From the NCBI GenBank assembly GCA_947243845.1, contig CAMXIF010000002.1:1-64000 (forward strand): 64,000 bases of DNA, in the 5' to 3' direction. Of this stretch, positions 1 through 20,030 are shown one piece after another (within the stretch, counting starts at the first letter, position 1; each line of letters begins with the position of its first letter). The notes under the pieces are model-generated. The model searched no databases. It had not been told where the DNA came from and was given only the letters and a program-made list of their open reading frames with translations. The position numbers and the translations under genes are program-made. The stretch is from an uncultured bacterium. Its GTDB lineage: Bacteria > Bacillota > Clostridia > Lachnospirales > Lachnospiraceae.

Positions 1-148
1 GATAACTACTGCTTACTTAACCATTCAACATTTAGTTGATAATCTGGTATTATCCTTCGTTTATTATTATACTTCCTTTGTAGGTGGTTTTCAACGAATT
101 ATTTTTGTAAAATAAACTCATGCAAAAATAGTTTCCCATAATACTGCA

Positions 149-318
149 TTATTCCAAATACGCGTCACACAAAACTATAAAATTAAAACTAATCAGCAAA
201 ACAAACGTGGCAATCCCTGAAAACAGAGAAGCACCTATAACAAACCTGCAATTACTTTTCTCCTGTTTTTCTAATATCTCTACTTCCGCTCCGAAATTTC
301 TTTTAATCTTTCTTTATA
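149..318 (-). other. Possible displaced membrane-anchor reading frame after the STAND NTPase
   Basis: This open frame overlaps the last codons of the NTPase gene in another frame and runs on to a stop at 149-151. Its tail is strongly hydrophobic, about 20 residues beginning VIGASLFSGIATFVLLI, and looks like a single transmembrane helix. No ATG, GTG or TTG with a ribosome site lies in the frame. It is either chance or a C-terminal anchor separated from the NTPase by a frameshift. Nothing else is seen in the first 279 bases. Confidence 0.2.
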
Positions 319-2892: not shown

Positions 2893-3274
2893 AAATTATC
2901 CTGTACTCTTGATACATCCTTTAGATTCATCTTCCCTTCATATTCCTTATTTTTTGTATCTACTTGCACATTTATTAACGCAAATCATACTACATACTAC
3001 AACAGGCATTTTCTTGCAAATAGTCTATACTTACAAAATACCCTTAGCAGTATTTTCCGACATTTATCCTTCTGTGGTACTATGCAAAAACAATACTAAC
3101 AGAAAAACTCTCTAAACTGCAGGGGATACTTATCTTAGTCTGTCTTCATAAAAATGACGTGGCCAAGGAAATAGAATTTTGTGAAAAACATTGAAAATAC
3201 AGCGCTAAATCCCAAGAGAAAAGCCTCCAGATATTGCAGAAATTTATAACGCGATAGCAAAGGTAAATTGGCGT
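2893..3274. other. Intergenic stretch between the NTPase gene and rfbG
   Basis: No convincing gene is seen in these 382 bases. They hold the NTPase ribosome site (AGGA before 2892). At 3191-3206 there is a 16-base sequence that matches, with one mismatch, the right arm of the large inverted repeat at 63530-63656. A short hydrophobic open frame ends near 3138 but has no good start. Confidence 0.4.
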
Positions 3275-4357
3275 TTACTTTTTCCGATCTGACATAAACT
3301 CCTCGATCTGCCTACACATCACCGGATAAACATCCGCGCTTTGTCTATAAGCAATCGTCCATTCCACAATTTTTTCCATGGCCTGTTCCACATTCCATAC
3401 CGGCTTCCAGTCAAAGACCGTTTTTAATTTAGAACAATCCAGCTTGAGAAAGTTCGCCTCATGCGGCCCGCCGTCCGATAGATTTTTCCAGCCAATCTTA
3501 TCCCCTGTAAAGTGATTCCATTTATCACAAAACAGCGTAACCAGTTCCCCTGTTGTATAACAGTCCGCATCATCCGGACCCACGTTATAATTCCCGGCAT
3601 ACGCCGCCTTTTCATACTGCCTCTGCGCAATCATCAGATAAACCGCCAAAGGCTCCAGCACATGCTGATAGGGCCTGGTCGAATAGGGATTACGCACAAT
3701 AATATCCTGGCCATTTAAGACCGCCCTCACACAGTCCGGAATGATCCTGTCCACCGCAAAATCACCACCGCCGATCACATTACCGGCTCTGGCTGTTGAA
3801 ACTGCTGTCTTACGACCGTCCTCTTCTCCAAAAAAGGAATTTCTATAACAACTGGTTACCAATTCCGAACAGGACTTGGAGTTCGAATAAGGATCATACC
3901 CGTTCAGTTCTTCATTCTCCCGATATCCCCAGGACCATTCCCTGTTCAGATACACTTTGTCTGTGGTCACATTCAAAAAGGACTTCACACTTTCACAAGT
4001 CCTGACGCACTCTAGCACATGCACAGTCCCCATCACGTTCGTCTCATAAGTGTAGACCGGATTCTTGTAAGATTCCCGCACAATAGGCTGCGCCGCCATA
4101 TGGATGACAATTTCCGGCCGCACCTCATCAAACACCTTTTTAAGATGCGTAAGATCCCTGACATCGCCAATGATGGAATGAATCCTCTTACCCATATCTG
4201 TCAAACTGTAAATAGATGGATTCGTAGGCGGCTCCAAGGCATACCCAGTCACATCGGCCCCTGCCTGTAAAAGCAGGGCACACAGCCAGGTTCCCTTAAA
4301 ACCAGTATGTCCGGTAATCAATACCTTTTTATCTTTATAAAACGTCAAATCCAACAT
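3275..4357 (-). CDS. rfbG: CDP-glucose 4,6-dehydratase
   Basis: A 360-residue extended short-chain dehydrogenase. The NAD-binding motif GHTGFKG (residues 16-22) is the form typical of CDP-glucose 4,6-dehydratases, and a YxxxK catalytic pair is present in YDPYSNSK. The enzyme converts CDP-glucose to CDP-4-keto-6-deoxyglucose in the cytoplasm, the entry step to CDP-3,6-dideoxyhexoses. It is the last gene of the rfbF-rfbH-rfbG group. The order and the pairing with RfbH make the assignment firm. Length matches the family (about 360). Confidence 0.93.
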   Translation of the reverse strand: MLDLTFYKDKKVLITGHTGFKGTWLCALLLQAGADVTGYALEPPTNPSIYSLTDMGKRIHSIIGDVRDLTHLKKVFDEVRPEIVIHMAAQPIVRESYKNPVYTYETNVMGTVHVLECVRTCESVKSFLNVTTDKVYLNREWSWGYRENEELNGYDPYSNSKSCSELVTSCYRNSFFGEEDGRKTAVSTARAGNVIGGGDFAVDRIIPDCVRAVLNGQDIIVRNPYSTRPYQHVLEPLAVYLMIAQRQYEKAAYAGNYNVGPDDADCYTTGELVTLFCDKWNHFTGDKIGWKNLSDGGPHEANFLKLDCSKLKTVFDWKPVWNVEQAMEKIVEWTIAYRQSADVYPVMCRQIEEFMSDRKK

Positions 4358-4541
4358 TTACGACCTCATATTTTCCCATATTTATATATTCATTCAATGT
4401 ATCATGTTCACCTCATCTGCTTCTATATTCTTTTCGCCTTACTTCAACGCAAATTGAGATGCATTCTACACTAAAAGCAATATTTTAATCCCAATAATCA
4501 TTTATTCATTTCTGCGCTTCCGCAATGTCATGTACTTAACA

Positions 4542-5918
4542 CTACGTAGCCACTGCCGTATTCACAGCCTCAACTAACATCCGCACCATATAATCAATCA
4601 TCTCATCTGTCATGCCCGGATAAACCCCAATCCAGAAGGTGTCCGCCATGATGCGATCCGTATTCTTCAATTCCCCTACAATACGATAGCCTTCACCGCT
4701 TGCCCGCATCTCATCAAAACAAGGATGCTTCGTCAGATTTCCGGCAAAGAGCATACGTGTCTGCACACCGTGTCCTTCCAGATACCGCACAATCTTTTCG
4801 CGACTTACACCTTCCCTGCAGGTAATCGGGAAGCCAAACCAGCTCGGCGCAGAATTCTCACATGCCTCCGGCAGGACCAACCTGTCCACAATACGACCAT
4901 TCCCATTCGCCGCCAACAAACCATCTTTCAATCTCTCAAAATTATATTTTCTCCGTTCCACAAAAGAAGGAAATTTCTCAAGCTGGGCGCAGCCGATAGC
5001 CGCCTGCATATCCGTTGCCTTCAGATTATATCCAAAATGCGAATACACATACTTATGATCATACCCCTTCGGCAATTCCCCATACTGCCCGTCAAACCGA
5101 TGGCCGCAAAGATTATCCCTGCCGGACGGGCACACACAGTCTCTGCCCCAGTCACGGAAAGACCGTACACACTTATGCAAAAGTGGATTATTGGTATAGA
5201 CCGCTCCCCCTTCGCCCATGGTCATATGATGCGGCGGATAAAAACTGGATGTGCCGATATCCCCGAATGTTCCTGTCAATCCTGTCTTTCCTTCCAGCGT
5301 ATACGTAGAACCAAGAGCATCGCAATTATCTTCCACCAGCCACAGATTATGCTTCTTGCAAAACGTACTCACAGCCTTTAAATCAAAAGGATTCCCCAGC
5401 GTATGGGCAATCATAACCGCTTTCGTCCTGTCTGAAAGCGCCTCCTCCAACATAGTAACATCGATATTATACTGCGGAATCGTCACATCCACAAACACCG
5501 GCACCGCTCCATATTGAATCATCGGCGCCACTGTGGTGGGAAATCCTGCCGCTACCGTAATCACCTCGTCTCCCCTGCGAATTGCACGTTCTTCCAGAAG
5601 CGGAGATGTCAATGCCATAAAAGCAAGCAGATTCGCCGAAGAACCGGAGTTAACCAACGAACAATATTTGACTCCCAGATAGTTTGCCAGGTCTCCCTCA
5701 AACTGGTCCGTATACCTGCCGGAAGTCAGCCAGAATTCCAACGCACTGTCCACCAGATTAACCATCTCTGCACTGTCATAAACACGGGACGCATAAGGGA
5801 TGCGGTCGCCCTCCTGATAATGTTTTTGATTGTGATAATTATCACAGTATTCTTTAACCCTTTGCAGGATTTCTTCCCTAGCCTGCTGTTCTGATTTTTG
5901 ATTCATACCAGCCTCCAT
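4542..5918 (-). CDS. rfbH: CDP-4-keto-6-deoxyglucose 3-dehydrase (E1, RfbH type)
   Basis: A 458-residue protein of the DegT aminotransferase fold, specialised as the PMP- and [2Fe-2S]-dependent E1 dehydrase that removes the 3-hydroxyl of CDP-4-keto-6-deoxyglucose. In the cofactor motif FYPPHHMTMGEGGAV the usual PLP lysine is replaced by histidine, the hallmark of E1. The cysteine-rich segment that follows (FRDWGRDCVC, then DNLCGHRF) supplies the cluster ligands. The start has GGGAGGAG seven bases upstream. The E1 reaction needs an E3-type ferredoxin reductase, and none is visible in this window, so it must be encoded elsewhere or replaced by a general reductase. Confidence 0.93.
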   Translation of the reverse strand: MEAGMNQKSEQQAREEILQRVKEYCDNYHNQKHYQEGDRIPYASRVYDSAEMVNLVDSALEFWLTSGRYTDQFEGDLANYLGVKYCSLVNSGSSANLLAFMALTSPLLEERAIRRGDEVITVAAGFPTTVAPMIQYGAVPVFVDVTIPQYNIDVTMLEEALSDRTKAVMIAHTLGNPFDLKAVSTFCKKHNLWLVEDNCDALGSTYTLEGKTGLTGTFGDIGTSSFYPPHHMTMGEGGAVYTNNPLLHKCVRSFRDWGRDCVCPSGRDNLCGHRFDGQYGELPKGYDHKYVYSHFGYNLKATDMQAAIGCAQLEKFPSFVERRKYNFERLKDGLLAANGNGRIVDRLVLPEACENSAPSWFGFPITCREGVSREKIVRYLEGHGVQTRMLFAGNLTKHPCFDEMRASGEGYRIVGELKNTDRIMADTFWIGVYPGMTDEMIDYMVRMLVEAVNTAVAT

Positions 5919-5994
5919 AACTTCTCCTCCCAGAAAACCTTTTCACCAATCACTTGACCCTATCAGCTCCTGAGCAAATCCCTTTTCTACAATC

Positions 5995-6765
5995 CTATCT
6001 CTTCCACGGCGCCTCACCACTTGCCCACAAATCTTCCAGATAATCCTTATCTCTCATGGTGTCCATAGGCGACCAGAATCCCTCGTGTTTGTAAGCCGCC
6101 ATCTGACCCTCTTTTGCCAGACGTTCAAAAGGTTCCCGCTCCAGCATCATACTGCCGTCTCCCAGATAATCAAACACCTTTGTGTTCAACACCATAAAAC
6201 CCGCATTCACCCATGCCTGATCTACGCGTGCCTTCTCATTAAAACTCTTTATCTGTTGCGTTTCAGAATCAATCTTAATGGCTCCAAAACGCCCAGCAGG
6301 CTGCGTGGCCGTAATGGTCGCGATCAGTCCTTTTTCATGATGGAAATCTAGCAGCGAATCAATATCCACATTAGATACACCATCTCCATAAGTAAGAAAG
6401 AACTCATCCCCGTCAATATAATCCCGCACCTTCAGGACGCGCCCCGCCGTTAAAGTATCAAGGCCCGTATTGGCAAGCGTCACCTTCCATGGTTCCACAT
6501 GACTCTCATGCACTATCGTCTGCTTGTCTTGTAACAAAAAAGTGCTGTCCGACTGCCGCACATAATAATGGGTAAAATATTCTTTGATCATCTGCCCCTT
6601 ATATCCACAGCATATAATAAACTCATGATAGCCATAATGGGAATAGGTCTTCATAATATGCCACAGAATCGGCCTGCCGCCAATCTCTATCATCGGTTTG
6701 GGCCTTAAAGAAGTCTCTTCACCAATCCGGGTTCCACGGCCACCCGCCAGGATCACTACCTTCAT
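5995..6765 (-). CDS. rfbF: Glucose-1-phosphate cytidylyltransferase
   Basis: A 256-residue sugar nucleotidyltransferase that makes CDP-glucose from CTP and glucose-1-phosphate. It begins with the signature GGRGTRIGEETSLRPKPM, including the catalytic GxGTR arginine and the PKPM lysine. The catalytic aspartate lies in LTYGDGVSNVD, and WSPMDTMRDK is the family's C-terminal sugar-binding stretch. GGAG lies nine bases before the start. It follows the divergent paralog by two bases, so the pair is co-translated, and it supplies the substrate for RfbG and RfbH downstream. Confidence 0.94.
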   Translation of the reverse strand: MKVVILAGGRGTRIGEETSLRPKPMIEIGGRPILWHIMKTYSHYGYHEFIICCGYKGQMIKEYFTHYYVRQSDSTFLLQDKQTIVHESHVEPWKVTLANTGLDTLTAGRVLKVRDYIDGDEFFLTYGDGVSNVDIDSLLDFHHEKGLIATITATQPAGRFGAIKIDSETQQIKSFNEKARVDQAWVNAGFMVLNTKVFDYLGDGSMMLEREPFERLAKEGQMAAYKHEGFWSPMDTMRDKDYLEDLWASGEAPWKR

Positions 6766-6767
6766 AA

Positions 6768-7619
6768 CTATACGCTCCTATCCCGCATCCATGGCGCTAT
6801 TCCGGCGTTCCATAGATTCTCCGCCTCCACAAAATCTCGCCTTGTCTCTATCGCGCTCCAATAGCCGTTGTGACGATATACGGCCAGTTGGTTTTTATCT
6901 GAAAGCGTTCTCAACAACTGTTTCTCAAGATCGTAATTTCCCTGTAAATATCGGAACACCTTCTTACTAAATACAAAACAGTCCGCATTAATCCATGCAG
7001 TGTCATTCTGCGTGATATCCTGTCCCGTATATTTGAAAACACCATCTGCATCTATTGGCAAAAGCTGGCTTCTCCCTCTCGGCTTTGCCATTGTCATCGT
7101 TGCCTCTTTATCTGTCTGGCAGTGCGTTTCCACAAGTGCCCTGAAGTCAATATCCGACAGGCAGTCACCGTAAGTGACTATGAACGTATCGTTCTCAATA
7201 TATTTCTCTATCATACTGACGCGCTGTCCTGTAGAGGAAAACAAACCGGTATCCACTATAGTAACCTTCCAGTCTTCCGTCTTGTTTTTGTGAACCTCAA
7301 TCGTATTCTTTGCAAGATCCACGGTAATATCCGACTCATAGATATAAAAATCCTGAAAATACTCCTTAATCATGTCTACATGATAGCCGCCGCACACGAT
7401 AAACTCTTTAAATCCATGTTTGGAAAACTGTTTCATGATATGCCAAAGAAGCGGTTTCCCGCCAAGATCAACCATAGGTTTGGGGATTCCCTCTGTGTCG
7501 TCATTTAAAGTACTTTGGGCTCCGCCTGCCAGGATTACGACTTTTAGTTTTGAAATATTATTAATGTCTGCCATTTGAATTTTCGCTTTCTGTGGTTTCC
7601 GTTTTATGGAATTTAGCAT
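6768..7619 (-). CDS. Divergent RfbF-like sugar nucleotidyltransferase paralog
   Basis: A 283-residue paralog of the neighbouring RfbF. The two align along their length (for example GGKPLLWHIMKQFSKHGF here and GGRPILWHIMKTYSHYGY in RfbF; VTYGDCLSDID and LTYGDGVSNVD). The catalytic signature is altered: AGGAQSTLNDDTEGIPKPM lacks the GxGTR arginine that positions the nucleotide phosphates. It may therefore use another nucleotide or sugar, act as a partner subunit, or be inactive. The start is uncertain: the promoter's -10 box lies only about 14 bases before the ATG at 7619, and neither this ATG nor the one at 7574 has a clear ribosome site. Confidence 0.75.
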   Translation of the reverse strand: MLNSIKRKPQKAKIQMADINNISKLKVVILAGGAQSTLNDDTEGIPKPMVDLGGKPLLWHIMKQFSKHGFKEFIVCGGYHVDMIKEYFQDFYIYESDITVDLAKNTIEVHKNKTEDWKVTIVDTGLFSSTGQRVSMIEKYIENDTFIVTYGDCLSDIDFRALVETHCQTDKEATMTMAKPRGRSQLLPIDADGVFKYTGQDITQNDTAWINADCFVFSKKVFRYLQGNYDLEKQLLRTLSDKNQLAVYRHNGYWSAIETRRDFVEAENLWNAGIAPWMRDRSV

Positions 7620-7631
7620 AATGACAGTTAA

Positions 7632-7660
7632 ATTTTATCAGGCGGGTAGCTTTAAGTCAA
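7632..7660 (-). promoter_or_regulatory. Promoter for the CDP-dideoxyhexose genes
   Basis: On the minus strand TTGACT (7655-7660) is followed after 17 bases by TAAAAT (7632-7637), a near-consensus sigma-70/SigA promoter. It lies downstream of the terminator at 7819-7864 and directly upstream of the RfbF-like gene, so it should start the rfbF, rfbH, rfbG transcript independently of the upstream three-gene unit. Confidence 0.6.
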
Positions 7661-7704
7661 TCCTTGGCGATAGTATCAAGATTTTTTCTTTTAAATATCC
7701 TGCG

Positions 7705-7755
7705 TTAATTAATCCATGATAGATATCCTCCACTAAAAACTACTAGTTTTTTCAT
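7705..7755 (-). other. 16-codon mini-ORF upstream of the RfbF-like gene
   Basis: A short frame MKKLVVFSGGYLSWIN starts seven bases after AAAGGA and ends before the promoter at 7632-7660. It resembles the first strand and loop of a nucleotide-binding protein and may be the stub of a deleted gene. With so few residues no function can be assigned. Confidence 0.2.
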
Positions 7756-7818
7756 GTCCTTTGGAGTGTCTCACAAACGTACTAACTATCCAAGTCGTAG
7801 GATTTGACCGTTACTAAA

Positions 7819-7864
7819 AAACCTCCAGACTGTGTAGTTTTATCTTACATCAGTCTGGAGGTTT
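7819..7864 (-). terminator. Rho-independent terminator after the three-gene unit
   Basis: Perfect 14-base arms (7819-7832 and 7851-7864, core CCTCCAGACTG) flank an 18-base loop. On the minus strand the stem is followed by a run of T. It lies about 60 bases after the stop of the gene at 7925-8779 and closes that transcription unit. The run of A on the other side means it could also act on plus-strand transcripts. Confidence 0.85.
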
Positions 7865-7924
7865 ACACAAACTTTGGGATGATCCCACAATCACTGCCGC
7901 TAATCTAGCCATTTAAAGACTCTA

Positions 7925-8779
7925 TCATTCGCAAATCTTTTCTATTTTATAATATACACTGGATCTTCTTCTCATTTCTTCAATATTTTTGTTATACGCC
8001 GCCTTCAACACTGCCTCGCTATGAAACCCCAATCTGTCATTTCCAAAAGTATCCTCAATCCATTCCCCAACATATATACCTGTCCATTTTTCAAACAAAA
8101 CTGAAAATCCTGCAGAAAAGCCATAATCTACATACGACTTCAGATTATCTATAAATCCTTTATAGGTATCCATATACTCTTTGATACACTTTTTGTTCTC
8201 CGTTGTACTTCTTTCACCTTTTACATATTCATAAACCAATTTCATAGTTCTATTGGGGAAAAAGAACATCACAAATATAAGTAATGCCAAGCACTCCCTT
8301 TCCTTGGGTTGTGTACGTATACCTACAATAAAATGTTCTAAAAAAACACATACCGGACGCACCTCTGTAATGCAAGCCTCCACATCGGATGGTTTCTTTT
8401 GGTCAATATCTACAAATTCCCCTTTTCGTCTTCGCGCTATGTACACCTTATCTTTCATAGATGCTTTTTCTTTACAGATTTTATAATAACATCGAGTCTC
8501 CTCATTATCATCACTGGCAAAAATTGGCGCAAACTCTCGTCCATAATATCTTGATAAAATGCATTTCACATCCTGCTGTATATCAAATCTATTTTCAATT
8601 TCCATCTTGTAGCAATTTTTAACAACATATCCCCAAAAGTTCACCGACATACTACTCAGACAATGACAAGGAAGCCCTTTCTTCGCGTTGCATGATTGGG
8701 TCTCATCTAACAATTGAGGATTTTGTTCATAGAAGATTTGTTCAATTCTCAGCATAAAATATTCAAGTTTTGAATCCAC
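7925..8779 (-). CDS. Unknown 284-residue protein, third gene of the PRTase-like unit
   Basis: I do not recognise the family. The protein has a cysteine cluster near the N-terminus (CNAKKGLPCHC, residues 30-40), a basic patch IARRRKG, a hydrophobic central segment LALLIFVMFFF that could be buried or membrane-associated, and a helical C-terminus. No signal peptide or catalytic motif is evident. The start is GTG, with AAAGGA ten bases upstream, 21 bases after the stop of the PRTase-like gene and in the same reading frame as it. It is the last gene before the terminator at 7819-7864, so it works with the two upstream genes. Confidence 0.7.
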   Translation of the reverse strand: MDSKLEYFMLRIEQIFYEQNPQLLDETQSCNAKKGLPCHCLSSMSVNFWGYVVKNCYKMEIENRFDIQQDVKCILSRYYGREFAPIFASDDNEETRCYYKICKEKASMKDKVYIARRRKGEFVDIDQKKPSDVEACITEVRPVCVFLEHFIVGIRTQPKERECLALLIFVMFFFPNRTMKLVYEYVKGERSTTENKKCIKEYMDTYKGFIDNLKSYVDYGFSAGFSVLFEKWTGIYVGEWIEDTFGNDRLGFHSEAVLKAAYNKNIEEMRRRSSVYYKIEKICE

Positions 8780-8800
8780 GGCATAATTATCCTTTGCAAT

Positions 8801-10390
8801 TTAACAATATACGCTCGGCAACTCCCATTCGCCCAAATAATTTCCATTCACCTTCAAAAAATGTTTTATCAATTCATATTGCAAACTATCTTCGGAATCG
8901 TTTTCCATATTTGCTTCTTCCAATTCCTTAATTTTATCTGCAATATAACGAAAACTTTGCTCTCCAGCTCTTGCGAATGGACATACCAATTCCTTATCAA
9001 ATACAACCATATCACATGCTGCTGTACCAGCATCCCAACTTTTCAATTGTAATCTACTCGATCTATGAATATCCTCACCCAATTTATCATAAAATGTTTT
9101 TATGGAAAGACCATTCTCTCTCTTTTCCCGCCTTCTAACATGTTCCTCATCCTGATAACGATCAAAATAGAAATATAAAGAAAGAATTTCATTCTCCCCA
9201 ACTTCCTTTATTGCCCTTTCTAGTCCACCAAGCAGCGTTTCATTTTCCAAGACTCTTTCATTATATGGCGTTTCATTAAATTGAAAGTCCAACAAATCAA
9301 TAATATCCTCAAATACGAGCCCTTCAATATCTTCTGCCACATCATTGCCAAAACACATAGATAACGTTGCCCACTCTCCCGTTGAAAAATCAAACACCCC
9401 TGGATACTTGTGATCAAGATATAATCCATAAACTCGATTCAATAAAGAATTCATCAAATATGCTTTATACTTCAATTGATGATCCTCTTCCTGTCCTGAT
9501 AATAGTTCTCCCGCCAAAGCACAGTATCTATCTTTCAATTGTTTTGCACACGCTTCACAGAAAGCCGCAATATCGCTAAAGGAAACATTTTTCATAAAAA
9601 CATATGGAACATATAAAGTCTGCGGTATTTTATCATTTCTATAATATCTGACACAAGCATCATACCCACCGGTCTTAATCAAAGCAGGAAGTTCTTCTTT
9701 CTCAAAAAAAACCAATGCATCCGTTCCAACATTTTTCTGATCGATATTGGTATTATCCTCTACTATAAATGCATTTTCCAATTTTCCTAAATCAACAGGC
9801 CCTGAGGCGATGTATGTTTCCACATAAGAAACATAAGACGTAACTGTTGCCTGTATCACATTGACCAACTGCGTTGACAGTTCTCTCCATTCCCAGTCAT
9901 AAACTTCGGAATCTGTTTTTATCTTTTTTCTTAAGCTGTCCGTTATCGCATCCGCATTTCTGTCCATTTTATGGACATATACTCTGATATTTTCCTTTTC
10001 AAAATTTTCGTCCAACTCTTCATATAATTTCTGAAGCCCTTGACCGTGGATAACAATATCATCCAATATTACAACCGATGATTTCATTAAATCATCTTTA
10101 TACTTTGGCACTGCATGACTTGAAATGAACATACCCCGTACTTGGATATCTGACTCATTTTTTAAAATAATAGGCAAAAATATCCGAAACAGTACCTGAC
10201 ATCTTCTGGCTCTGAGAATTTTATAATCCTCCTCACTATCAAGCACATTACAAAAATAATCATACAGCAAATCATAATTTCGATCCAAAATACTGCTTGT
10301 CACTCGCTCCAAATACTCAATCTGCTTCGGGAATTCTTGTGCATATTCTCTATATCTTGTTATTATAGTGGATGTCAATTTCATAATCAT
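8801..10390 (-). CDS. Phosphoribosyltransferase-like protein
   Basis: A 529-residue protein. Residues about 60-160 look like a phosphoribosyltransferase fold: the PRPP-loop motif normally written VVLVDDhhxTGxT appears as VVILDDIVIHGQGLQKL (106-122), with the acidic pair at 110-111 and the usual T replaced. A strand with a SSH motif (90-92) precedes it, as in this fold. The remaining 370 residues are unrecognised. PRTase-like domains taken over into conflict systems (PRTase-CE) are known, and this looks like that kind of protein rather than a purine or pyrimidine salvage enzyme, which would be about 180-200 residues. A second ATG at 10384 is possible. It lies between a membrane protein and an unknown protein in one transcription unit. 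Confidence 0.6.
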   Translation of the reverse strand: MIMKLTSTIITRYREYAQEFPKQIEYLERVTSSILDRNYDLLYDYFCNVLDSEEDYKILRARRCQVLFRIFLPIILKNESDIQVRGMFISSHAVPKYKDDLMKSSVVILDDIVIHGQGLQKLYEELDENFEKENIRVYVHKMDRNADAITDSLRKKIKTDSEVYDWEWRELSTQLVNVIQATVTSYVSYVETYIASGPVDLGKLENAFIVEDNTNIDQKNVGTDALVFFEKEELPALIKTGGYDACVRYYRNDKIPQTLYVPYVFMKNVSFSDIAAFCEACAKQLKDRYCALAGELLSGQEEDHQLKYKAYLMNSLLNRVYGLYLDHKYPGVFDFSTGEWATLSMCFGNDVAEDIEGLVFEDIIDLLDFQFNETPYNERVLENETLLGGLERAIKEVGENEILSLYFYFDRYQDEEHVRRREKRENGLSIKTFYDKLGEDIHRSSRLQLKSWDAGTAACDMVVFDKELVCPFARAGEQSFRYIADKIKELEEANMENDSEDSLQYELIKHFLKVNGNYLGEWELPSVYC

Positions 10391-10404
10391 TTACCCCAAT
10401 TTAA

Positions 10405-11304
10405 TTATTTACGTCCTATAATCTGAATATTATGAGATATCTCATAAAGATTAAGATATTTAGGAATCTTTATGTTTACTTCTTTCGTTTCCCCTATCTG
10501 CCTGTTCTCAACCAACAATTCAAATTCAGCATCATAGATATGCGGCTTTTGCCGCTTCATCCACGCTTTCTCTTGCATACACATAGACATCCGAATCCAC
10601 TGATGACGCATATATCTTTCCTGAAGCAACGGTTCATAATCTCGTATATGATAAAAGAAAGACACCCTCTTTCTCATATCTGTTTCGTCCGCATCTTTCT
10701 CCTCTACGAATTTAAACTCATTAAAATATATGTAAATCGTTGTACGAATGGCATTCTCTACATATATTCTACAATCGCTAAGTCCTCTTTCATCAATCAT
10801 CTCATACTGATCATTGCACTCTCCCCACAAAACTTCGCGCGCCTTAATATCATAATCAGAACTATTCCCTGATAACACTATTTTTAACAAAAACTGATAT
10901 CTTTTCGAATCACTATAGCGTAACTCTTTCGGGATAAAATCTTCATACATATCATACAAGCACACACTTAATACTTTAAAATTTCTTAGCCGAGCAACTA
11001 ACTCACGCTCTTCCACCTTATAGGAAAAACGTAAGGCCAAAAGCCCAAGTACAATAGTGGAAGCCGCGCCCAAATAGCCTACCAGAAGAGATAATCCACT
11101 TTCCGCATCCCATCTCAAATACAGATAGGAAAATGCATCATTAGGCCACATACACACCCCTTGATCTAACTCTGCTGCTACCCAGCAACCCAGCAATGCC
11201 AAAAGCAGCAGGAACAGTACTATACAGAAAAAATAAAGATAAGGGTGTAAAATTGTAAATTCTCTAGCTTTCTTTTTAATATTAATAGTCATAATCCTTT
11301 TCAT
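10405..11304 (-). CDS. Two-TM membrane protein, first gene of the PRTase-like unit
   Basis: A 299-residue protein with two predicted transmembrane helices: about 22-45 (FFCIVLFLLLLALLGCWVA) and 71-95 (LSLLVGYLGAASTIVLGLLA), joined by a short loop containing CMWPNDAFSY. The basic N-terminus and the large C-terminal part (about 96-299) should be cytoplasmic. The C-terminal part matches no family I recognise. Membrane-anchored proteins of this shape are often effectors or tethers in defence cassettes, but that is inference. The start codon follows AAGG closely, and a perfect hairpin lies just upstream. Confidence 0.65.
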   Translation of the reverse strand: MKRIMTINIKKKAREFTILHPYLYFFCIVLFLLLLALLGCWVAAELDQGVCMWPNDAFSYLYLRWDAESGLSLLVGYLGAASTIVLGLLALRFSYKVEERELVARLRNFKVLSVCLYDMYEDFIPKELRYSDSKRYQFLLKIVLSGNSSDYDIKAREVLWGECNDQYEMIDERGLSDCRIYVENAIRTTIYIYFNEFKFVEEKDADETDMRKRVSFFYHIRDYEPLLQERYMRHQWIRMSMCMQEKAWMKRQKPHIYDAEFELLVENRQIGETKEVNIKIPKYLNLYEISHNIQIIGRK

Positions 11305-11311
11305 CTGCCTT

Positions 11312-11338
11312 ATATCTTAAACAACCAGTTTAAGATAT
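11312..11338. promoter_or_regulatory. Perfect inverted repeat just before the membrane-protein gene
   Basis: Arms of 11 bases (11312-11322, 11328-11338; ATATCTTAAAC) flank a 5-base loop. It ends eight bases before the ATG at 11304 and lies about 90 bases inside the transcript from the promoter at 11427-11456. It is AT-rich and has no T run in the gene direction, so an operator or an RNA element controlling translation fits better than a terminator. Confidence 0.45.
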
Positions 11339-11426
11339 TCTCAGCAACCGTGACACTGCTTTTTATGTCCAGTCGATGTCTTCACATAAACCTCTATATT
11401 TGCAGTCCATTTACTTTATCTTCTCT

Positions 11427-11456
11427 ATTATATTACATCCATAAATGGTTTTGCAA
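11427..11456 (-). promoter_or_regulatory. Promoter of the PRTase-like three-gene unit
   Basis: TTGCAA (11451-11456), an 18-base spacer and a perfect TATAAT (minus strand; 11427-11432). It sits in the gap between the FkbM gene and the membrane-protein gene and gives a leader of about 115 bases holding the hairpin at 11312-11338. Confidence 0.6.
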
Positions 11457-11519
11457 TACCCTTTCAGCCAATCCATGACTCTTTTTCGTTTTAAAACAAA
11501 GCAAGCCCTACATAGCTGC

Positions 11520-12641
11520 CTAGCTTTCCTTCGCATAACACACCGTATCATCCATATTCCACCGATGATGTGCATAGAAAATATCATACTTTGGATTTAT
11601 TTCCTTAATCAGCAACGGGATCTCCCATAAATGCTCCAACTTATGATACGCAGAAATTGCCAAGACCGGACTCCACTTCTGAATACTCTTACGTGCTCCC
11701 TCTAATGCCTTTATCTCACTTCCCTCAATATCCATGGAAATAAAGTCTATTCTTTTGCCGTCAAGGATATGGTCTATCGCATCAACATCAATCTTAATCG
11801 CCTTTTTTCCAGCATCGCTATCTAACAATGTTCCTGATACAAAATCATCTCCTATCGCAAAAAATAATTCCTGCGCTTGATCCCACACCCCCATATTATA
11901 GCATTTCACATTTGTCAAACCTTTACTTTGACAATAGTTCTCTAGTATTTCAAAATTATCTCTGTCAGCCTCAAATGCATAATAATGATAATTCTGATTT
12001 ACCCCCACCCCTATCTGAATGAGGAATCTTTGCAAAGTATCTCCTTCACATGCCCCACAATCAACAAAATTACCCGACACATGTTGCACAATACGATTAC
12101 CAAAATATTGGTTCTCTTCGTATACTTTCCAAACTAGTTCCAAATCATGAACAGCTCTATGCAGTAAAATATTTCTAAACACCTGCTTCGATTCGGTATC
12201 TGATAAGATTGCATATACCTGCTCAATCTTATCTGCATTCGAATCAATCGTCTCCCTGACTTGTTCATTCGGCAGGCACTGAAAATATTCAGGATCTATA
12301 TACATATAATTATCTATCCCTGCCTTCTGTAACTGTTGGTGGATTTGATACTTGACATTGGCACAGATAATAACCAAACTATTCCTGGGTATTTCATCAA
12401 TACTTATCACTTTTATGTTCTTATACAGCGTTCCCCATTTTTTCTGGTCATTATCTGAAAAAAATGCTGGCATGTACCCCATAGCATATAAATCTTTATA
12501 TACCTGCTGAGCGGCCAATCCCGTTCCCCATATGCCGATAATTTCTGCATTTTCTATTTTATCCTGTATTTTACTCCAGTTATCCTTATATAATTCTATG
12601 TCCTTTTGTAATATTTCTATAAATCCCATCCTATTACCCAT
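11520..12641 (-). CDS. FkbM-family methyltransferase with N-terminal Rossmann-like module
   Basis: A 373-residue fusion. Residues about 30-115 form a small nucleotide-binding-like module (IIGIWGTGLAAQQVY, then AFFSDNDQKKWGT) of the type shared by several neighbours. The C-terminal half is an FkbM methyltransferase: the SAM-binding motif FVDCGACEGDT, then YAFEADRDNFE, and the family's FISMDIEGSEIKALEG. FkbM enzymes O-methylate sugars or natural products in the cytoplasm. Its neighbours upstream are the ParB-like pair, the epimerase and the pyruvyl-transferase-like gene, so the acceptor is probably a glycan residue. A second ATG at 12629 is possible. Confidence 0.8.
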   Translation of the reverse strand: MGNRMGFIEILQKDIELYKDNWSKIQDKIENAEIIGIWGTGLAAQQVYKDLYAMGYMPAFFSDNDQKKWGTLYKNIKVISIDEIPRNSLVIICANVKYQIHQQLQKAGIDNYMYIDPEYFQCLPNEQVRETIDSNADKIEQVYAILSDTESKQVFRNILLHRAVHDLELVWKVYEENQYFGNRIVQHVSGNFVDCGACEGDTLQRFLIQIGVGVNQNYHYYAFEADRDNFEILENYCQSKGLTNVKCYNMGVWDQAQELFFAIGDDFVSGTLLDSDAGKKAIKIDVDAIDHILDGKRIDFISMDIEGSEIKALEGARKSIQKWSPVLAISAYHKLEHLWEIPLLIKEINPKYDIFYAHHRWNMDDTVCYAKES

Positions 12642-12661
12642 TCCTATATTTTTTATGCTCT

Positions 12662-14125
12662 CTATCTTTCATCAGTTTCGCCATCTAATTTTACTAACAA
12701 ATAACTCCTATAGAGTCCCGTCCCTTTCCACATTGCATCTATCACTTTACCAATTTTCAAGGCACCCATTTCACAAACATGCTTCTGTACTGCCTCTGTC
12801 GCTGACCTCAGGATAACATATGCAGCCTCACATAAATCATTTTCTGAAAGTTCTAAAACAGTTTGTCCCTCTGCAATCAATACATCAACATTCTCTGCCA
12901 TCTGTGAAACATAATTAATCTCCGTATCAAACAACCTATTCAAGGCTGTTTCCATTTCATCAGGCTGCTTCCACCTCCATACCTGTGAACCGCATCTGTG
13001 CAGATATCTTGCTAAATGTCCTTCGTCATTAGTTCTATCTACCACACGGAATCTGGTAAAGTCGACCTTCCCTTTCTCATAAAACAATTTTTCTCCAAAA
13101 TAGCGAGAAAACCATAACATAAATGAGTGTTGCCCAAAATCTCTGTTATGAACTCCTCTATAAAAATAGGGATTGGGAACCACTACAGTCCCATCATATA
13201 AATCCACAATATTTTTAACGTAATTTACCTCTCCTGAATTTACAAACTCTTCATAATCTGCCTCACTAATACAAAGCGGAATATACTTGTTGCCTTTGGC
13301 CGCCAAAAATGTACACCTGTGCTTTCCACTGGTCAGATTAAAATATTTTCCTTTTCTGTTCCAAACTGCCGTTGCTGCATTTCTAACAAAAAAGAGCGGA
13401 TCTAACTGTAGTGCCTCACTCATTTGCTCAAAAATATGAGTTCTATTCGCAATCACATTGTCTCGCCAAGCATCTGTGATTTCTATTTTCCCTTCTATCT
13501 GTGCCGTAAATTCACAATATTCTTTTAAATATGGCATTACCGAACAATTCTGATCTCCATCTAAACTTCTAAAAAAGTTAATGTGTGTAAAAAAACAAGG
13601 GATAGGTACATTTCCCCATTTTTCCATTTCGTCATCCCGATAATCATTTGTAAAAATATATTCTACCGGGATATAAGCCGTCACCTGCCCATTTTCCTTA
13701 GAAATCAGCGCATAATCATGTAAACCTGCCTCACGTGTACAGTCCGGAATATCAAATTCAGGCCTTTTTAGGCATCCCTCGAACAAATCATCATATAACT
13801 GTGCCAAATCTTTTTCCTTATCTGACGCATTCCCTAACAGAACATTATAAGGTTTATAGATTAAATTCTGAAAGCCGGCCTTTGCGAGCTGACGTGCAAT
13901 TTTTTCATGCTCAAATACATTCTTAACTGATATATAGACTACAATTTCTTCATCATGCCCAAGCTCCAGCGCCTTATGAATACTCCATACAGGCCGCCCA
14001 TTATACTGATCCATTTCATGGGCCCTTTTGTCTATATATCCCACCACATTATAGCCACAGGATTCTAAGGTATCCTTGACAATCCCTCCGATTGATGCCG
14101 CTCCATAAAGTATAAATTTCCTCAT
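12662..14125 (-). CDS. Rossmann-like module fused to a ParB/sulfiredoxin-like domain (paralog 1)
   Basis: A 487-residue protein with two recognisable parts. Residues 1-95 form a Rossmann-like module (FILYGAASIGGIVKDTL, then VVGYIDKRAHE). Residues about 265-300 carry a ParB/sulfiredoxin-like motif, LTSGKHRCTFLAAKGNKYIP, in which the usual DGHHR box is GKHR. The rest is unassigned. It is a tandem paralog of the next gene upstream, which has DGHNR at the same place. ParB-like folds include nucleotidases, CTPases and kinases such as SbnI and Srx, so a nucleotide-dependent reaction on a sugar or amino acid is conceivable but unproven. GGAGG lies six bases before the start. Confidence 0.55.
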   Translation of the reverse strand: MRKFILYGAASIGGIVKDTLESCGYNVVGYIDKRAHEMDQYNGRPVWSIHKALELGHDEEIVVYISVKNVFEHEKIARQLAKAGFQNLIYKPYNVLLGNASDKEKDLAQLYDDLFEGCLKRPEFDIPDCTREAGLHDYALISKENGQVTAYIPVEYIFTNDYRDDEMEKWGNVPIPCFFTHINFFRSLDGDQNCSVMPYLKEYCEFTAQIEGKIEITDAWRDNVIANRTHIFEQMSEALQLDPLFFVRNAATAVWNRKGKYFNLTSGKHRCTFLAAKGNKYIPLCISEADYEEFVNSGEVNYVKNIVDLYDGTVVVPNPYFYRGVHNRDFGQHSFMLWFSRYFGEKLFYEKGKVDFTRFRVVDRTNDEGHLARYLHRCGSQVWRWKQPDEMETALNRLFDTEINYVSQMAENVDVLIAEGQTVLELSENDLCEAAYVILRSATEAVQKHVCEMGALKIGKVIDAMWKGTGLYRSYLLVKLDGETDER

Positions 14126-14151
14126 GTAAAGCCTCCGCCTTAAAACGCTTT

Positions 14152-15600
14152 CTACAATAATCTGCTATAAATTCCTACTTCCCTGACTTCCTTTTCTTCT
14201 ACTACCCTAAGCAAAAAATGATACTCCTCATAACCATAAGTATTCAATATCCTTTTACTTTCATCTATATTCCCATAAGTTTTATGAACTAGGAATCTGC
14301 AATTTTTCAGGGACTCATCTTTCAATATGTTTTCCAAATCCTTCCCCTGAATATCTTTCAAAATAAATGCAAGTTCTATCTCTTTCTCCACATGGCAAAC
14401 ATCTTTCCTAATCTGTATGTTGCCGATTTGAATCAGCCTTTGTATTTGATTAATCGTATTTATTGTCTCTTCTCTATCCTCAATCAGTGCCGCATACTTT
14501 GCTCCCATTCTTAGAAAATTAGCCGCAAAATACCCCTCATATTCACTAATTTCCAACATATTGTTTATTTTTGTACTCTCTTTTCCTAGATACCTAAGAA
14601 CCTCACATAAAATATCAACACATAAATCGTCTTTCGTAATCTTCTCATATTTAAACAAAGGATGAGGTAAATGGTAGGAGAACTGCTGCTCTCTCTCCTC
14701 CAACTTATCACAAATAACTTTGCAAACAGAATTATTTAACCATAGTGCATAATCCTCTCTGCTCATGCGAACCGGTATCCATCTGCATCCCTTATCAATA
14801 AGAAAGCATACCCTGTTATGTCCATCCAGCACATTGAAATATGCTCTTTCATTCCATTTCACCTCTACAGGCGCATACATAAAGTATTCATGATTTTCCT
14901 TCCATTCTTTTTCCAACATCAAATATGTGTTAAATCTTCTCTGCAAAAAATCTCCAACATTCTCTGACTGCCCATCTTCTGGCATATAGACCTGTATAAA
15001 ATTATCCGCATTATCAATCCGCCCCTGAAAAAATTCATATCCCTCCGCAAGGATTCGAAATGAAGCCACCGGAATATTAGCATTCCCATCCGGCCAATTT
15101 TCTTCTGTATATAGTAAATCTATTGGGCACCAACTTACTATATATTCACTGCTTTTGCGAATAATACAGTCTACAAAAGCTGATTTTACCAAGGTACTGT
15201 AATAGGGTATTTCTCTAATCCTATCTATATCATGCTCACAACAATACGTATAAATCTCTAACATCTGTACACGTGGACCAGTAAGATAACCATCTCCCAT
15301 AGGCAGAAAAATAATTTTATCGATTCCAAGGTCATATAGGTTCTGCGCAACTTCTTGATGCATAAAGGCATTATGAATGCATACCACTACAACTATATGT
15401 GTTCCCAGTTTATTTACCCCCTCCTGTGGTGTATAAACCGGAATATCTATGTCTTTTGTGGAGATGGAAGCGGCATTTTGATCAAAAAAAGCCGACACAT
15501 GATAATGTCTGCTAAAATAACGGTATCTTTCCTTCCCAAGCGCACCGCCCCCGTAAATCACCATATTGTCTTTTGCTGATATTGTATAATAACCACTCAT
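14152..15600 (-). CDS. Rossmann-like module fused to a ParB/sulfiredoxin-like domain (paralog 2)
   Basis: A 482-residue paralog of the downstream gene. The N-terminal module reads MVIYGGGALGKERYRYF and then SAFFDQNA; the ParB/sulfiredoxin-like box is FNVLDGHNRVCFLIDKG followed by IPVRMSREDY. Here DGHNR is close to the canonical phosphate-binding box, so this copy is the more likely active one and the GKHR copy the divergent one. No membrane segments are seen. The two genes are 26 bases apart, in a block with an epimerase, a nucleotidyltransferase-like protein and a radical SAM protein. Confidence 0.55.
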   Translation of the reverse strand: MSGYYTISAKDNMVIYGGGALGKERYRYFSRHYHVSAFFDQNAASISTKDIDIPVYTPQEGVNKLGTHIVVVVCIHNAFMHQEVAQNLYDLGIDKIIFLPMGDGYLTGPRVQMLEIYTYCCEHDIDRIREIPYYSTLVKSAFVDCIIRKSSEYIVSWCPIDLLYTEENWPDGNANIPVASFRILAEGYEFFQGRIDNADNFIQVYMPEDGQSENVGDFLQRRFNTYLMLEKEWKENHEYFMYAPVEVKWNERAYFNVLDGHNRVCFLIDKGCRWIPVRMSREDYALWLNNSVCKVICDKLEEREQQFSYHLPHPLFKYEKITKDDLCVDILCEVLRYLGKESTKINNMLEISEYEGYFAANFLRMGAKYAALIEDREETINTINQIQRLIQIGNIQIRKDVCHVEKEIELAFILKDIQGKDLENILKDESLKNCRFLVHKTYGNIDESKRILNTYGYEEYHFLLRVVEEKEVREVGIYSRLL

Positions 15601-15632
15601 GAGCCTGTCCCGTATCCCTGTATTTATCCAGA

Positions 15633-16520
15633 TTATATAAGCTTGTCTGCGTCTATTTGGTCAAGATTTTCTTTATAATATTCACATAATTTCTCAATGG
15701 TTAAATCCCATGGAGAAAAGCTGATTTCTCCCATTTCACCCTGGAGTCTTTGGTTACATCCTGTATACTCCGTTTTAAACCCGTCTTTTGCCACCAATAT
15801 ATCACAGTCTATATTCAATATCTGTCTTACCTTGCAGGCAAGTGTATACAAATCAATCCTTGTTCCCCGGCAGACATTATAGTGTTTGTAACGCGGCTCA
15901 TTTTCAATAAACCACTTCATAATCTCTACTAAATCCTCTATCCATAAATAATCAAAATATACATTTTGGGATAGTGTAATCGGCATGCCCTTCAAACCCC
16001 TGCAGATTGCATTAGAAATAAATCTTCTGGACCATTCTTCATACTTCCCGTACACACCAAAAAGACGAAGATCATAAAGATTCCCATCTTTCCGACATGT
16101 TTTTGACATAATATACTTAGAAAATCCATAAGGATCCCTGGGGACATGAGTTCCAAAATAATCTTCTGTCATATTAGGGATATAATGTGCTGAACTGTAC
16201 TCTGCCCCAGAACCGAAATAATACATCTTTCCATAATATTCACTGCATCTCTCCAGATTATAGAACATGCGAAGATTATCATCGAGAACATCATAATCAG
16301 TTGTGCCGACTTTCACCACATCATTTCTGTTCGCACAGTGGATAATAATATCAAAATCCATATTTTTCAGATATCTTTCCACCTTATTATCATCCAGAAG
16401 ATCTAATTCCCGATGATCAGGCGTATAAATCTCATACTTATCTTCTAATTGTTCTTTTAAATTTCTTCCAATAAATCCCGTGGATCCAGTGACTAATATT
16501 TTCATAATACTTTTACACAT
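15633..16520 (-). CDS. NAD-dependent sugar epimerase/dehydratase
   Basis: A 295-residue extended SDR with the dinucleotide motif TGSTGFIG directly after the start and a YGFSKY catalytic YxxxK. It probably works on a nucleotide sugar in the cytoplasm; the exact substrate (epimerisation, 4-keto reduction or dehydration) cannot be read from the sequence. Two starts are possible: the ATG at 16520 overlaps the upstream gene by eight bases with AGGAG three bases before it, while the ATG at 16505 gives the usual MKILVTG start. A short decayed copy of a related epimerase is found at 28589-28648. Confidence 0.8.
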   Translation of the reverse strand: MCKSIMKILVTGSTGFIGRNLKEQLEDKYEIYTPDHRELDLLDDNKVERYLKNMDFDIIIHCANRNDVVKVGTTDYDVLDDNLRMFYNLERCSEYYGKMYYFGSGAEYSSAHYIPNMTEDYFGTHVPRDPYGFSKYIMSKTCRKDGNLYDLRLFGVYGKYEEWSRRFISNAICRGLKGMPITLSQNVYFDYLWIEDLVEIMKWFIENEPRYKHYNVCRGTRIDLYTLACKVRQILNIDCDILVAKDGFKTEYTGCNQRLQGEMGEISFSPWDLTIEKLCEYYKENLDQIDADKLI

Positions 16521-17418
16521 TTACTCCTCTTACTTTTGTTTCATCCTGCACAGAATACCGGACTAACTCATATATAGCTTCTATGGCTGTATTGATACAA
16601 CCTTCATCGATTTGTCGAGGAATTATATTTTCTGCCTCTACACTCATTTCATTGACAAAAGCATCTATTTCCGCATCATGTGCGATATTCCCGACATAAT
16701 GGGATTCTTGCAGCTTTTCTGCACTCTCTTCCCCTTGATGCAAATATTCTGCTGAAAGCCTTTTTGATAAATCAATCATATCCAGTATCTTGCTTTTCAA
16801 GGCGAGAGGAGCAATCTCCATCACCAAGGATTTCATATACACCGGTGGAAAGGTCTCTCTTTCTATTGCCCACTTGATACTAAGAGCGGCGTAGATTGCA
16901 TATAAATAGTCTTTAATGATGACTTGACTGTCTGACGAAAAATATTCCTTTATCTGATCCACATGATAAGGAATGAATTTTTCTTTTCTAAACACAGAGT
17001 TCATAATGGGAATTATTTTCATCTGAATTCCGTAAGGATCCCATGTATAGGGAGACTGTAGTGTCCACCCGATTATATTATATAATCCACAGGATTCTTT
17101 ACCATCAAACGCCGGTGTGTGTAAAAACTGCATAAATGATGTAAACTCCCACAATGGAATAAACTCATAAGGTAAATTATCAAAATAAACCCTGTGTTTT
17201 AGATCTTTTTCCTTTTCATAGAAGGGTACATATATTTTCTCGGGATCATTTCGATTTACATACAAAAATCTTGTATCATAATCACTGTCTTCATACTGTA
17301 ACCCTTTAGAAATCCCTCCCACTAAGGCACCATAAAGCAGCATAAAGTTGTTCTCTTCTGCAAACTGTAATGCATCACTTAAAAAACTCTTTTGAAACCC
17401 TTCATTCCCAAATAACAT
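16513..17418 (-). CDS. RlaP-like predicted nucleotidyltransferase
   Basis: A 301-residue protein with a DNA polymerase beta-type nucleotidyltransferase signature: the hGG element and spaced aspartates in GGISKGLQYEDSDYDTRFLY (about residues 34-53). This arrangement, with RFLYV after the second aspartate, resembles the RlaP/COG3541 group rather than sugar-1-phosphate nucleotidyltransferases. It would transfer a nucleotide or a phosphate-linked group to a small molecule or protein. The serine of the usual GSR is shifted, so activity needs testing. It overlaps or abuts the epimerase gene, so the two are translationally coupled. Confidence 0.6.
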   Translation of the reverse strand: MLFGNEGFQKSFLSDALQFAEENNFMLLYGALVGGISKGLQYEDSDYDTRFLYVNRNDPEKIYVPFYEKEKDLKHRVYFDNLPYEFIPLWEFTSFMQFLHTPAFDGKESCGLYNIIGWTLQSPYTWDPYGIQMKIIPIMNSVFRKEKFIPYHVDQIKEYFSSDSQVIIKDYLYAIYAALSIKWAIERETFPPVYMKSLVMEIAPLALKSKILDMIDLSKRLSAEYLHQGEESAEKLQESHYVGNIAHDAEIDAFVNEMSVEAENIIPRQIDEGCINTAIEAIYELVRYSVQDETKVRGVNV

Positions 17419-17461
17419 ATTCTACCCTGCCTGTCTGGCCGTACACCATTCTTACTATTCC

Positions 17462-18736: not shown

Positions 18737-18757
18737 ATAAATTTCCTCCTACTGCCT

Positions 18758-19954: not shown

Positions 19955-20030
19955 TTCGCGCTCCTTAGTATTCTTTAAACCATGAGATATGAAATTTCTA
20001 ATACCCATTCAGCAAAAATGGTATCGTCTA

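Follow-up and report, generated by a model that had tools for sequence, protein, structure and literature searches.

In retrons, DprA pairs and RqlHI, phosphoribosyltransferase (PRTase)-type proteins recur as toxins or effectors, and the sources drawn on here describe the way they act as unknown or unclear. According to these sources, PRTases are the typical effectors of type III retrons (PMC12548924), a pair of DprA and a PRTase protects E. coli against T7 and lambda (PMC9122126), and the PRTase domain of RqlH is toxic and requires a predicted Asp of the PRPP pocket (PMC4670107). RADAR is a two-gene system in which RdrA and RdrB protect E. coli (PMC9994260); the descriptions of RADAR consulted here present two genes and name no PRTase.

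A three-gene unit with a PRTase-like protein is described here from a 64,000-nt stretch of DNA of an uncultured Lachnospiraceae bacterium (the window). With moderate confidence, the unit is considered a patchy, probably horizontally moving and probably anti-phage cassette built around a PRTase-fold core. None of the three genes reaches the curated Pfam or NCBIfam cut-offs, and PADLOC gives no match to them; the SLATT profile is likewise unmatched, the only hit being SLATT_fungal with E 0.22 and 11.4 bits, where the cut-off is 35. The Pfam scans contain no row for PRTase-CE, a model that the library may not include.

The three-gene unit and its signals

Three co-directional genes from the ORF list occupy 7925-11304 of the minus strand, with gaps of 14 and 21 bases between them (Table 1). 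The original prediction described a self-contained unit of a two-TM protein, a 529-residue protein and a 284-residue protein, ending in a strong terminator; the genes and the hairpin are present, and the self-contained character is supported by the three-gene order, which is kept in seven full loci including the window. For the terminator region the folding energy is -27.3 kcal/mol (z -5.3), a value equalled by 0 of 200 shuffles; the hairpin is missing from the output of a simple terminator scan. The 11-base hairpin claimed before the first start is also real and is possibly an operator or an mRNA hairpin; the five other loci examined (L002-L006, with L039, L042 and L043 left out) show no similar repeat shortly before gene 1. 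The claim that the unit has its own promoter stands only in so far as the string exists: 27 such promoter-like strings were found in the scanned region against 24.8 +/- 5.5 expected, and because they are no commoner there than chance, the string alone is not evidence.

Table 1. Features of the three-gene unit, in positions of the 64,000-nt window
Feature	Coordinates	Strand	Basis
Rho-independent terminator-type hairpin, then T run	7819..7864	-	folding
Gene 3: Cys-motif protein, 284 aa, GTG start	7925..8779	-	ORF
Gene 2: PRTase-like protein, 529 aa	8801..10390	-	AF2 model, PDB fold matches
C-terminal motif of gene 2, D453-x-G455 ... E477	8960..9034	-	all three invariant, 12/12 loci
PRPP-loop motif of gene 2, VVILDDIVIHGQG, residues 106-118	10037..10075	-	alignment of 12 loci
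Gene 1: two-TM protein, 299 aa	10405..11304	-	ORF and hydropathy
27-base inverted repeat, just 5' of gene 1	11312..11338	-	11-bp arms, 5-base loop
Sigma-70-like promoter string TTGCAA-18-TATAAT	11427..11456	-	string match, 10/12

The gene 1 protein has hydrophobic (TM) segments at residues 25-43 and 73-91 by hydropathy and a soluble C-terminal part; a two-TM gene holds the same position in six further full loci. The model of the gene 3 protein is of middling quality and predicts a largely helical structure; within its Cys motif, C30, C38 and C102 are invariant in 10/10 aligned rows, and C40 is conserved in at least 90%.

Fold and conserved residues of the PRTase-like protein

The AF2 model of gene 2 has a pLDDT of 91.8 and a pTM of 0.92, and the PDB matches listed for it are PRTases, with an identity of at most 19% in the listed structural alignments; no PRTase was found when the PDB was searched with gene 2 sequence profiles. 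The model supports a PRTase core with an HGPRT-like fold at about residues 33-182, in agreement with the PRTase-like character originally predicted from the PRPP loop, and the protein also has a large conserved C-terminal region with invariant residues of its own.

The consensus PRPP loop of type I PRTases is DDxxxTGxT. Across 12 loci spanning both gene contexts described below, 11 PRTase residues are invariant; in the PRPP loop, D110, D111, H115 and G116 are invariant in 12/12, so that the DD pair of the catalytic consensus is kept and its TG is replaced by HG at every locus. Because the loop has HG where the consensus has TG, the gene 2 protein may have lost or changed its catalysis; the strict retention of the DD pair, together with the distal R, D, G and E, looks more like an active site than a simple binding site.

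Distribution and genomic context

The three genes are also found together in other genomes, contrary to the refuting case of a unit confined to this strain. Within the genus, both partners accompany the three-gene-type PRTase in 5/5 genomes, and two further genomes have a strong match to one partner, which sits at a contig end. The distribution of the unit is patchy, and the partners diverge faster than the PRTase. Phage and plasmid records gave no match to the window PRTase, and no relative of it was found in viral contigs. L005 is the only locus on the three-gene side that adjoins a catalogued defence system (Gabija GajA/GajB, together with a PDC-S20 KAP ATPase); its PRTase relative has a weak ShosT match (E 0.0034), and its genes 1 and 3 are without demonstrated homology. 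A possible divergent relative of 1088 aa is seen in G370, in what reads as a glycan locus.

A second gene context is seen in L006, L040 and L041, where PRTase relatives have RdrA- and RdrB-like genes closely downstream in an operon-like arrangement (gaps of 15-40 and 26-76 bases). An RdrB match is present at each of the three loci and an RdrA match at L040 and at L041; by BLASTP, the NTPase of L006 is homologous to the RdrA-like proteins of both these loci. The L041 neighbourhood also holds a dCTPase-type defence gene, and L006 has a retron-type reverse transcriptase (RT) about 6 kb upstream of the PRTase, for which the best PADLOC model is RT_I-B, not type III. The PRTase tree divides the three-gene context from the RADAR-like one (100/97). 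A search of the host genome gave no RdrB, and among 11 genus genomes with RdrB only two showed a relative of the window PRTase.

The original prediction placed the unit between glycan genes; the FkbM gene (11520-12641) is the only such flank scanned by the family library, and the other flanks in the window are recognised by reading and from orthologous genes at glycan loci that are related. Glycan or nucleotide-sugar genes also flank the unit at L003, L039 and L042/L066, and large genes for proteins that read as surface-type lie downstream at L039 and L042. Upstream of ct1 (6768-7619), the window carries the three-gene unit, G1119 and G1101 carry a RADAR-type cassette, and G1130 carries neither; the RADAR-type cassettes of sister species take the place of the window unit upstream of CDP-sugar genes. 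At a second site, three-gene and RADAR-type cassettes both abut homologous surface-protein genes, the distance to homologous DNA being about 85 bases for the three-gene unit of G1157 and about 59 for the RADAR-type genes of G1140. Because RADAR-type cassettes share these sites, the glycan neighbourhood looks like a variable site, and because its site is common to RADAR relatives, the unit may represent a bacterial immune cassette of a new kind; in these bacteria, defence cassettes are likely to be exchanged at variable loci for glycans and surface proteins.

Proposed function and alternatives

Anti-phage activity, catalysis, substrate, trigger and the direction of gating are put forward here as a working model. 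The PRTase-fold core, with its acidic PRPP-loop pair (DDxxxHG), would be the effector; upon infection it would probably act on a purine-type base, a nucleotide or PRPP, and the resulting upset of the nucleotide pool would stop either the production of phage or the growth of the host cell. The two-TM and Cys-motif proteins would anchor the PRTase at the membrane and hold it inactive in the absence of a trigger. Because of the RADAR-associated relatives, an enzyme or signalling role is at least as likely as the pure sensing first proposed, in which the membrane protein was the possible effector.

It is doubtful, yet worth weighing, that the PRTase serves as a sensor or produces a signal and is not itself the killer, binding or making a nucleotide once phage alters the pool, with a lineage-specific output (the membrane protein or RdrA/RdrB). 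The joining of one PRTase family to two unrelated outputs on separate sides of the tree fits such a role, as do the retention of the two-TM gene in 7/7 full three-gene loci and the deviation of the PRPP loop from the catalytic consensus; the description of RADAR as a two-gene system in which RdrA and RdrB protect E. coli (PMC9994260) argues against it, as do the conserved DD pair and distal residues, which look like an active site. A bolder and slightly more doubtful proposal is that one PRTase-fold family is the shared core of two immune systems, a three-gene membrane system and a RADAR variant of PRTase, RdrA-like and RdrB-like proteins, making or reading a phosphoribosyl nucleotide signal that would set off either an effector in the membrane or a complex that deaminates nucleotides. 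Relatives of RADAR-like enzymes convert ATP to ITP.

The original prediction of a defence cassette rather than a glycan function gains from the site sharing with RADAR-type cassettes and is weakened by the several relatives that also lie beside glycan genes. An improbable reading is a surface-glycan or envelope module, in which the PRTase and its partners modify or regulate a glycan, a lipid-linked ribose or surface proteins; the flanking glycan, nucleotide-sugar and surface-type genes and the G370 protein would suit it, but, read by eye, no glycan gene adjoins L002, L005 or L043 and the one at L004 lies 6 kb away, the glycan partners vary among loci, L037 is a related glycan locus without the unit, and both the occupation of the same sites by RADAR-type cassettes and the operonic union with RdrA/RdrB-like genes point elsewhere. 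Very improbable is a toxin-antitoxin-like or general stress cassette with no specific anti-phage role: patchiness and faster-diverging partners fit selfish or stress modules, and RqlHI offers a precedent for a partner that checks a toxic PRTase domain (PMC4670107), but the shared sites point to defence.

This PRTase family comes with a three-gene unit that is compact and conserved and a confident model with defined invariant residues, and its union with RADAR-like enzymes is a natural experiment; the effect of defence PRTases on the nucleotide pool would thereby become directly testable.

Comparison with known systems

Like ShosTA, the DprA-PRTase pair of the E. coli P2-like hotspot for which abortive infection is proposed, the window unit joins a PRTase-type protein to a partner; however, it is not assigned to ShosTA, as Pfam shows nothing DprA-like among the three genes and PADLOC gives no ShosT match for the window protein, which is larger and has an extra C-terminal region. 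With type III retrons it shares a PRTase-type protein as putative effector, but the assignment is rejected, since none of the three genes matches an RT and Rfam gives no match at gathering score across positions 1-20000 of the window. RqlHI resembles the proposed arrangement in that a toxic PRTase domain is held back by a partner (PMC4670107); RqlH is a helicase fusion, whereas the window unit has no helicase. HGPRT and PRTases of the same fold share the fold of the core and the acidic PRPP-loop pair, and differ from gene 2 in having TG rather than HG in the loop and in lacking its large extra region. The window unit contains neither an NTPase (RdrA ATPase) nor a deaminase (RdrB) gene, so that it is not RADAR, and it is not the PRTase-then-RdrA/RdrB arrangement of L006, L040 and L041; the likeness to RADAR lies in the operonic association of its PRTase relatives with RdrA- and RdrB-like genes and in the cassette sites common to both.

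Composition of the three-gene unit

The unit consists of three closely packed genes separated by 14 and 21 bases. A strong terminator had been predicted after them, and 7819-7864, 3' of the third gene, does form a strong hairpin followed by a T run (−27.3 kcal/mol, z −5.3, 0/200 shuffles); the hairpin expected ahead of the first start is likewise present as a 27-base inverted repeat upstream of the membrane-protein gene. The string proposed as the unit's own promoter exists, but such strings are no commoner here than chance. GC3 is 0.31-0.37 in the AT-rich unit, resembling the upstream genes, versus 0.47-0.53 in the downstream CDP-sugar genes.

Genes of the window unit
Feature	Position	Strand	Description
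Membrane protein (gene 1)	10405-11304	-	299 aa, two hydrophobic segments
PRTase-like protein (gene 2)	8801-10390	-	529 aa ORF
Third protein (gene 3)	7925-8779	-	284 aa, GTG start

The curated thresholds of Pfam and NCBIfam were not reached by any of the three proteins. PADLOC, searched to E 1, matched none of them, and PHROGs gave a single match among the three (E 0.3). Against PF00156 the window PRTase scores E 0.031; within a 45-row PRTase alignment 14 members match that family at E ≤0.05, the best at 2.4e-5 and 24.1 bits (cut-off 26.3).

About 5 kb from the unit, the minus strand at 280-2892 encodes an 870-aa NB-ARC/TPR protein of STAND type, the N-terminal ~190 residues of which have no Pfam match. 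Its codon usage is similar to that of the unit (correlation 0.84-0.91); it is possibly another immune gene.

Conservation and distribution

The PRTase is rare and patchy, all genome counts including the window's own genome. Query A1 found it in 1/397 family genomes and 2/392 order genomes; the second order genome has a distant relative of 686 aa, encoded on a short contig. Query A3 found 2/391 class genomes, the second through a match spanning 50 residues, and 7/77 genus genomes. The broader query A9 found 2/397 family genomes, the second through a protein of 1088 aa whose membership is uncertain; in a large protein database there were 45 protein clusters, counting that of the window. The 1088-aa protein (genome G370, locus L064, 6826-10092) carries a more classical PRPP-type motif, DDVVVKGTS, and its gene sits in a locus reading like glycan export; it is possibly a distant, larger relative.

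The three genes co-occur beyond this strain, as the original reading requires, in seven full loci (the window, L002, L003, L004, L039, L042 and L043) with intergenic gaps of -29 to 28 bases. A scan of genome contigs returned five loci, of which L002, L003 and L004 have the three genes in the same order; L005 is counted for its PRTase alone. BLASTP against the window gives, for membrane and third protein respectively, 2e-80 and 3e-62 (L002), 5e-18 and 1e-26 (L003), and 0.003 and 1e-6 (L004). The seven genus genomes are the window's own, the L002 record, those with three-gene loci L039, L042 and L043, and those with RADAR-like loci L040 and L041. The first and third proteins of L039, L042 and L043 were assigned through size, position and TM/Cys pattern, not strong BLASTP: the L039 membrane protein matches L003 at 2.6e-5 and the window at 0.008, and L042 and L043 match each other (5e-93 membrane, 3e-136 third), with no BLASTP match of either protein to the window.

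Among the 77 genus genomes, the membrane-protein profile matched 13, six strongly (E 6e-52 or better) and seven weakly (1e-5 range, frames of 187-227 aa); the third-protein profile matched eight, six strongly (E 3e-20 or better) and two weakly (3e-4 and 6e-4). Matches to L039, L042 and L043 are not independent, because their rows were in the later profiles. Both partners are present in 5/5 genus genomes with a three-gene-type PRTase. After the sixth strong membrane match (G1138) comes a PRTase of which the contig end leaves the first 68 residues, and the third gene of the sixth strong third-protein match (G1108) starts at a contig end. In L043, IS66-like transposase ORFs (by reading) lie on either side of the unit (1983-2345 and 7852-8214).

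PRTase relatives beside defence genes

The genes that come next after the PRTase relative in L006, L040 and L041 encode first a large P-loop NTPase (gap 15-40 bases) and then a deaminase-like protein (gap 26-76 bases), the latter identified by PADLOC as RdrB (E 1e-34, 2e-29 and 2e-30). The NTPases of L040 and L041 are RdrA by PADLOC (1e-13 and 8e-7); that of L006 has no RdrA match there and is homologous to both (2e-53 and 8e-55). In L006 the PRTase and NTPase sit between two different RdrB-like genes (3540-6275 and 12619-15333), one of them lying farther upstream, as does a retron-type RT (1e-85). Upstream of the L041 genes, within 183-3458, is a PADLOC dCTPase-type gene (7e-80); the same stretch has a 354-aa ORF reading like dCTP deaminase, with 0 PADLOC matches. 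Together with the PRTase-RdrA-RdrB-like genes this stretch is possibly a nucleotide-aimed defence cluster. The L005 PRTase relative is flanked by GajA (5e-229), GajB (7e-193) and a PDC-S20 KAP ATPase (2e-52). In a 19-row tree with long branches flagged, three RADAR-type PRTases split from eight three-gene-type rows with support 100/97, the latter side taking in L005.

Shared sites and the glycan neighbourhood

RdrB occurs in 11/70 genus genomes searched, the window's own genome having no match; two of the 11 (G1103, G1117) also have a PRTase match. At one site, the orthologue of the CDP-sugar cytidylyltransferase gene ct1 (6768-7619 in the window) has upstream of it, in G1119 and G1101, genes for a small protein that reads as hydrophobic, an RdrB-like protein and a large NTPase, in the place held in the window by the three-gene unit; in G1101 extra ORFs intervene. 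The ct1, ct2 and aminotransferase genes of these genomes are 57-84% identical to those of the window. PADLOC confirms the G1119 RdrB (5e-37) and gives its NTPase no RdrA match, hence the careful name RADAR-type.

Matches to ct1 were found in 52/60 genomes, 22 of them strong besides the window's own (E 2e-99 or better), and the upstream region was inspected in all 22. Two (G1119, G1101) have a RADAR-type cassette there, one (G1134) integrase-like genes by reading, one (G1124) a protein of 723 aa with mad2/methyltransferase matches, all weak (best 1.7e-10), and one (G1130) an immediately adjacent sugar-epimerase relative; four contigs end ~2 kb or less upstream, and the remaining 13 have mostly flippase-, lyase- and glycan-type genes or unassigned ORFs, by eye. 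G1156, reached via RdrB and outside this count, has RdrA- and RdrB-like genes (6e-9, 2e-31) between ct1 and ct2; with unassigned large genes they form ~12 kb (L083, 1581-13517) splitting a pair of CDP-sugar cytidylyltransferase genes adjacent in the window. At a second site, ~4.7 kb of homologous DNA (72-84% identity) encoding giant proteins lies next to both kinds of cassette: in G1157 (L039) the three-gene unit stops ~85 bases from it, and in G1140 (L082) the RADAR-type genes (RdrA 4e-7, RdrB 2e-26) stop ~59 bases from it. At a third (L043, L079), the common gene is one kinase-like gene only, ~2 kb away.

A glycan role for the unit would draw on its flanks: FkbM and other glycan/nucleotide-sugar genes in the window, GT2 and GT11 in L003, Epimerase_2, NeuB and a cytidylyltransferase in L039, and a ManC-like nucleotidyl transferase with cupin in L042/L066; in L004 a GT1 gene lies ~6 kb off. 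Several relatives thus lie in such settings; by eye no glycan/nucleotide-sugar flanks were seen in L002, L005 or L043. Because the glycan partners change from locus to locus and RADAR-type cassettes occupy the same places, the neighbourhood is better explained as a variable site, and a glycan role is considered quite improbable.

Proposed mechanism and precedents

The most likely mechanism is that the PRTase would be an enzyme working on the nucleotide/PRPP pool, gated by the membrane and Cys-motif partners; that it is instead a sensor or signal maker is considered rather doubtful. Between L002 and the window the PRTase is 58% identical, the membrane protein 43% and the third protein 36%; this faster divergence of the partners, judged from sequence, may fit proteins facing a changing trigger. 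According to passages in the published accounts, DprA paired with a PRTase gives protection from T7 and lambda (PMC9122126), and PRTase/WH effectors are typical of type III retrons (PMC12548924). Part of a further account describes the RqlH PRTase domain as toxic and restrained by RqlI, with D663A, in the predicted PRPP pocket, removing most of that toxicity (PMC4670107); RADAR is described, in part of its own report, as converting ATP and dATP to ITP and dITP (PMC9994260). These PRTase and RADAR systems offer a precedent, rather than proof, for the mechanism proposed for the unit.
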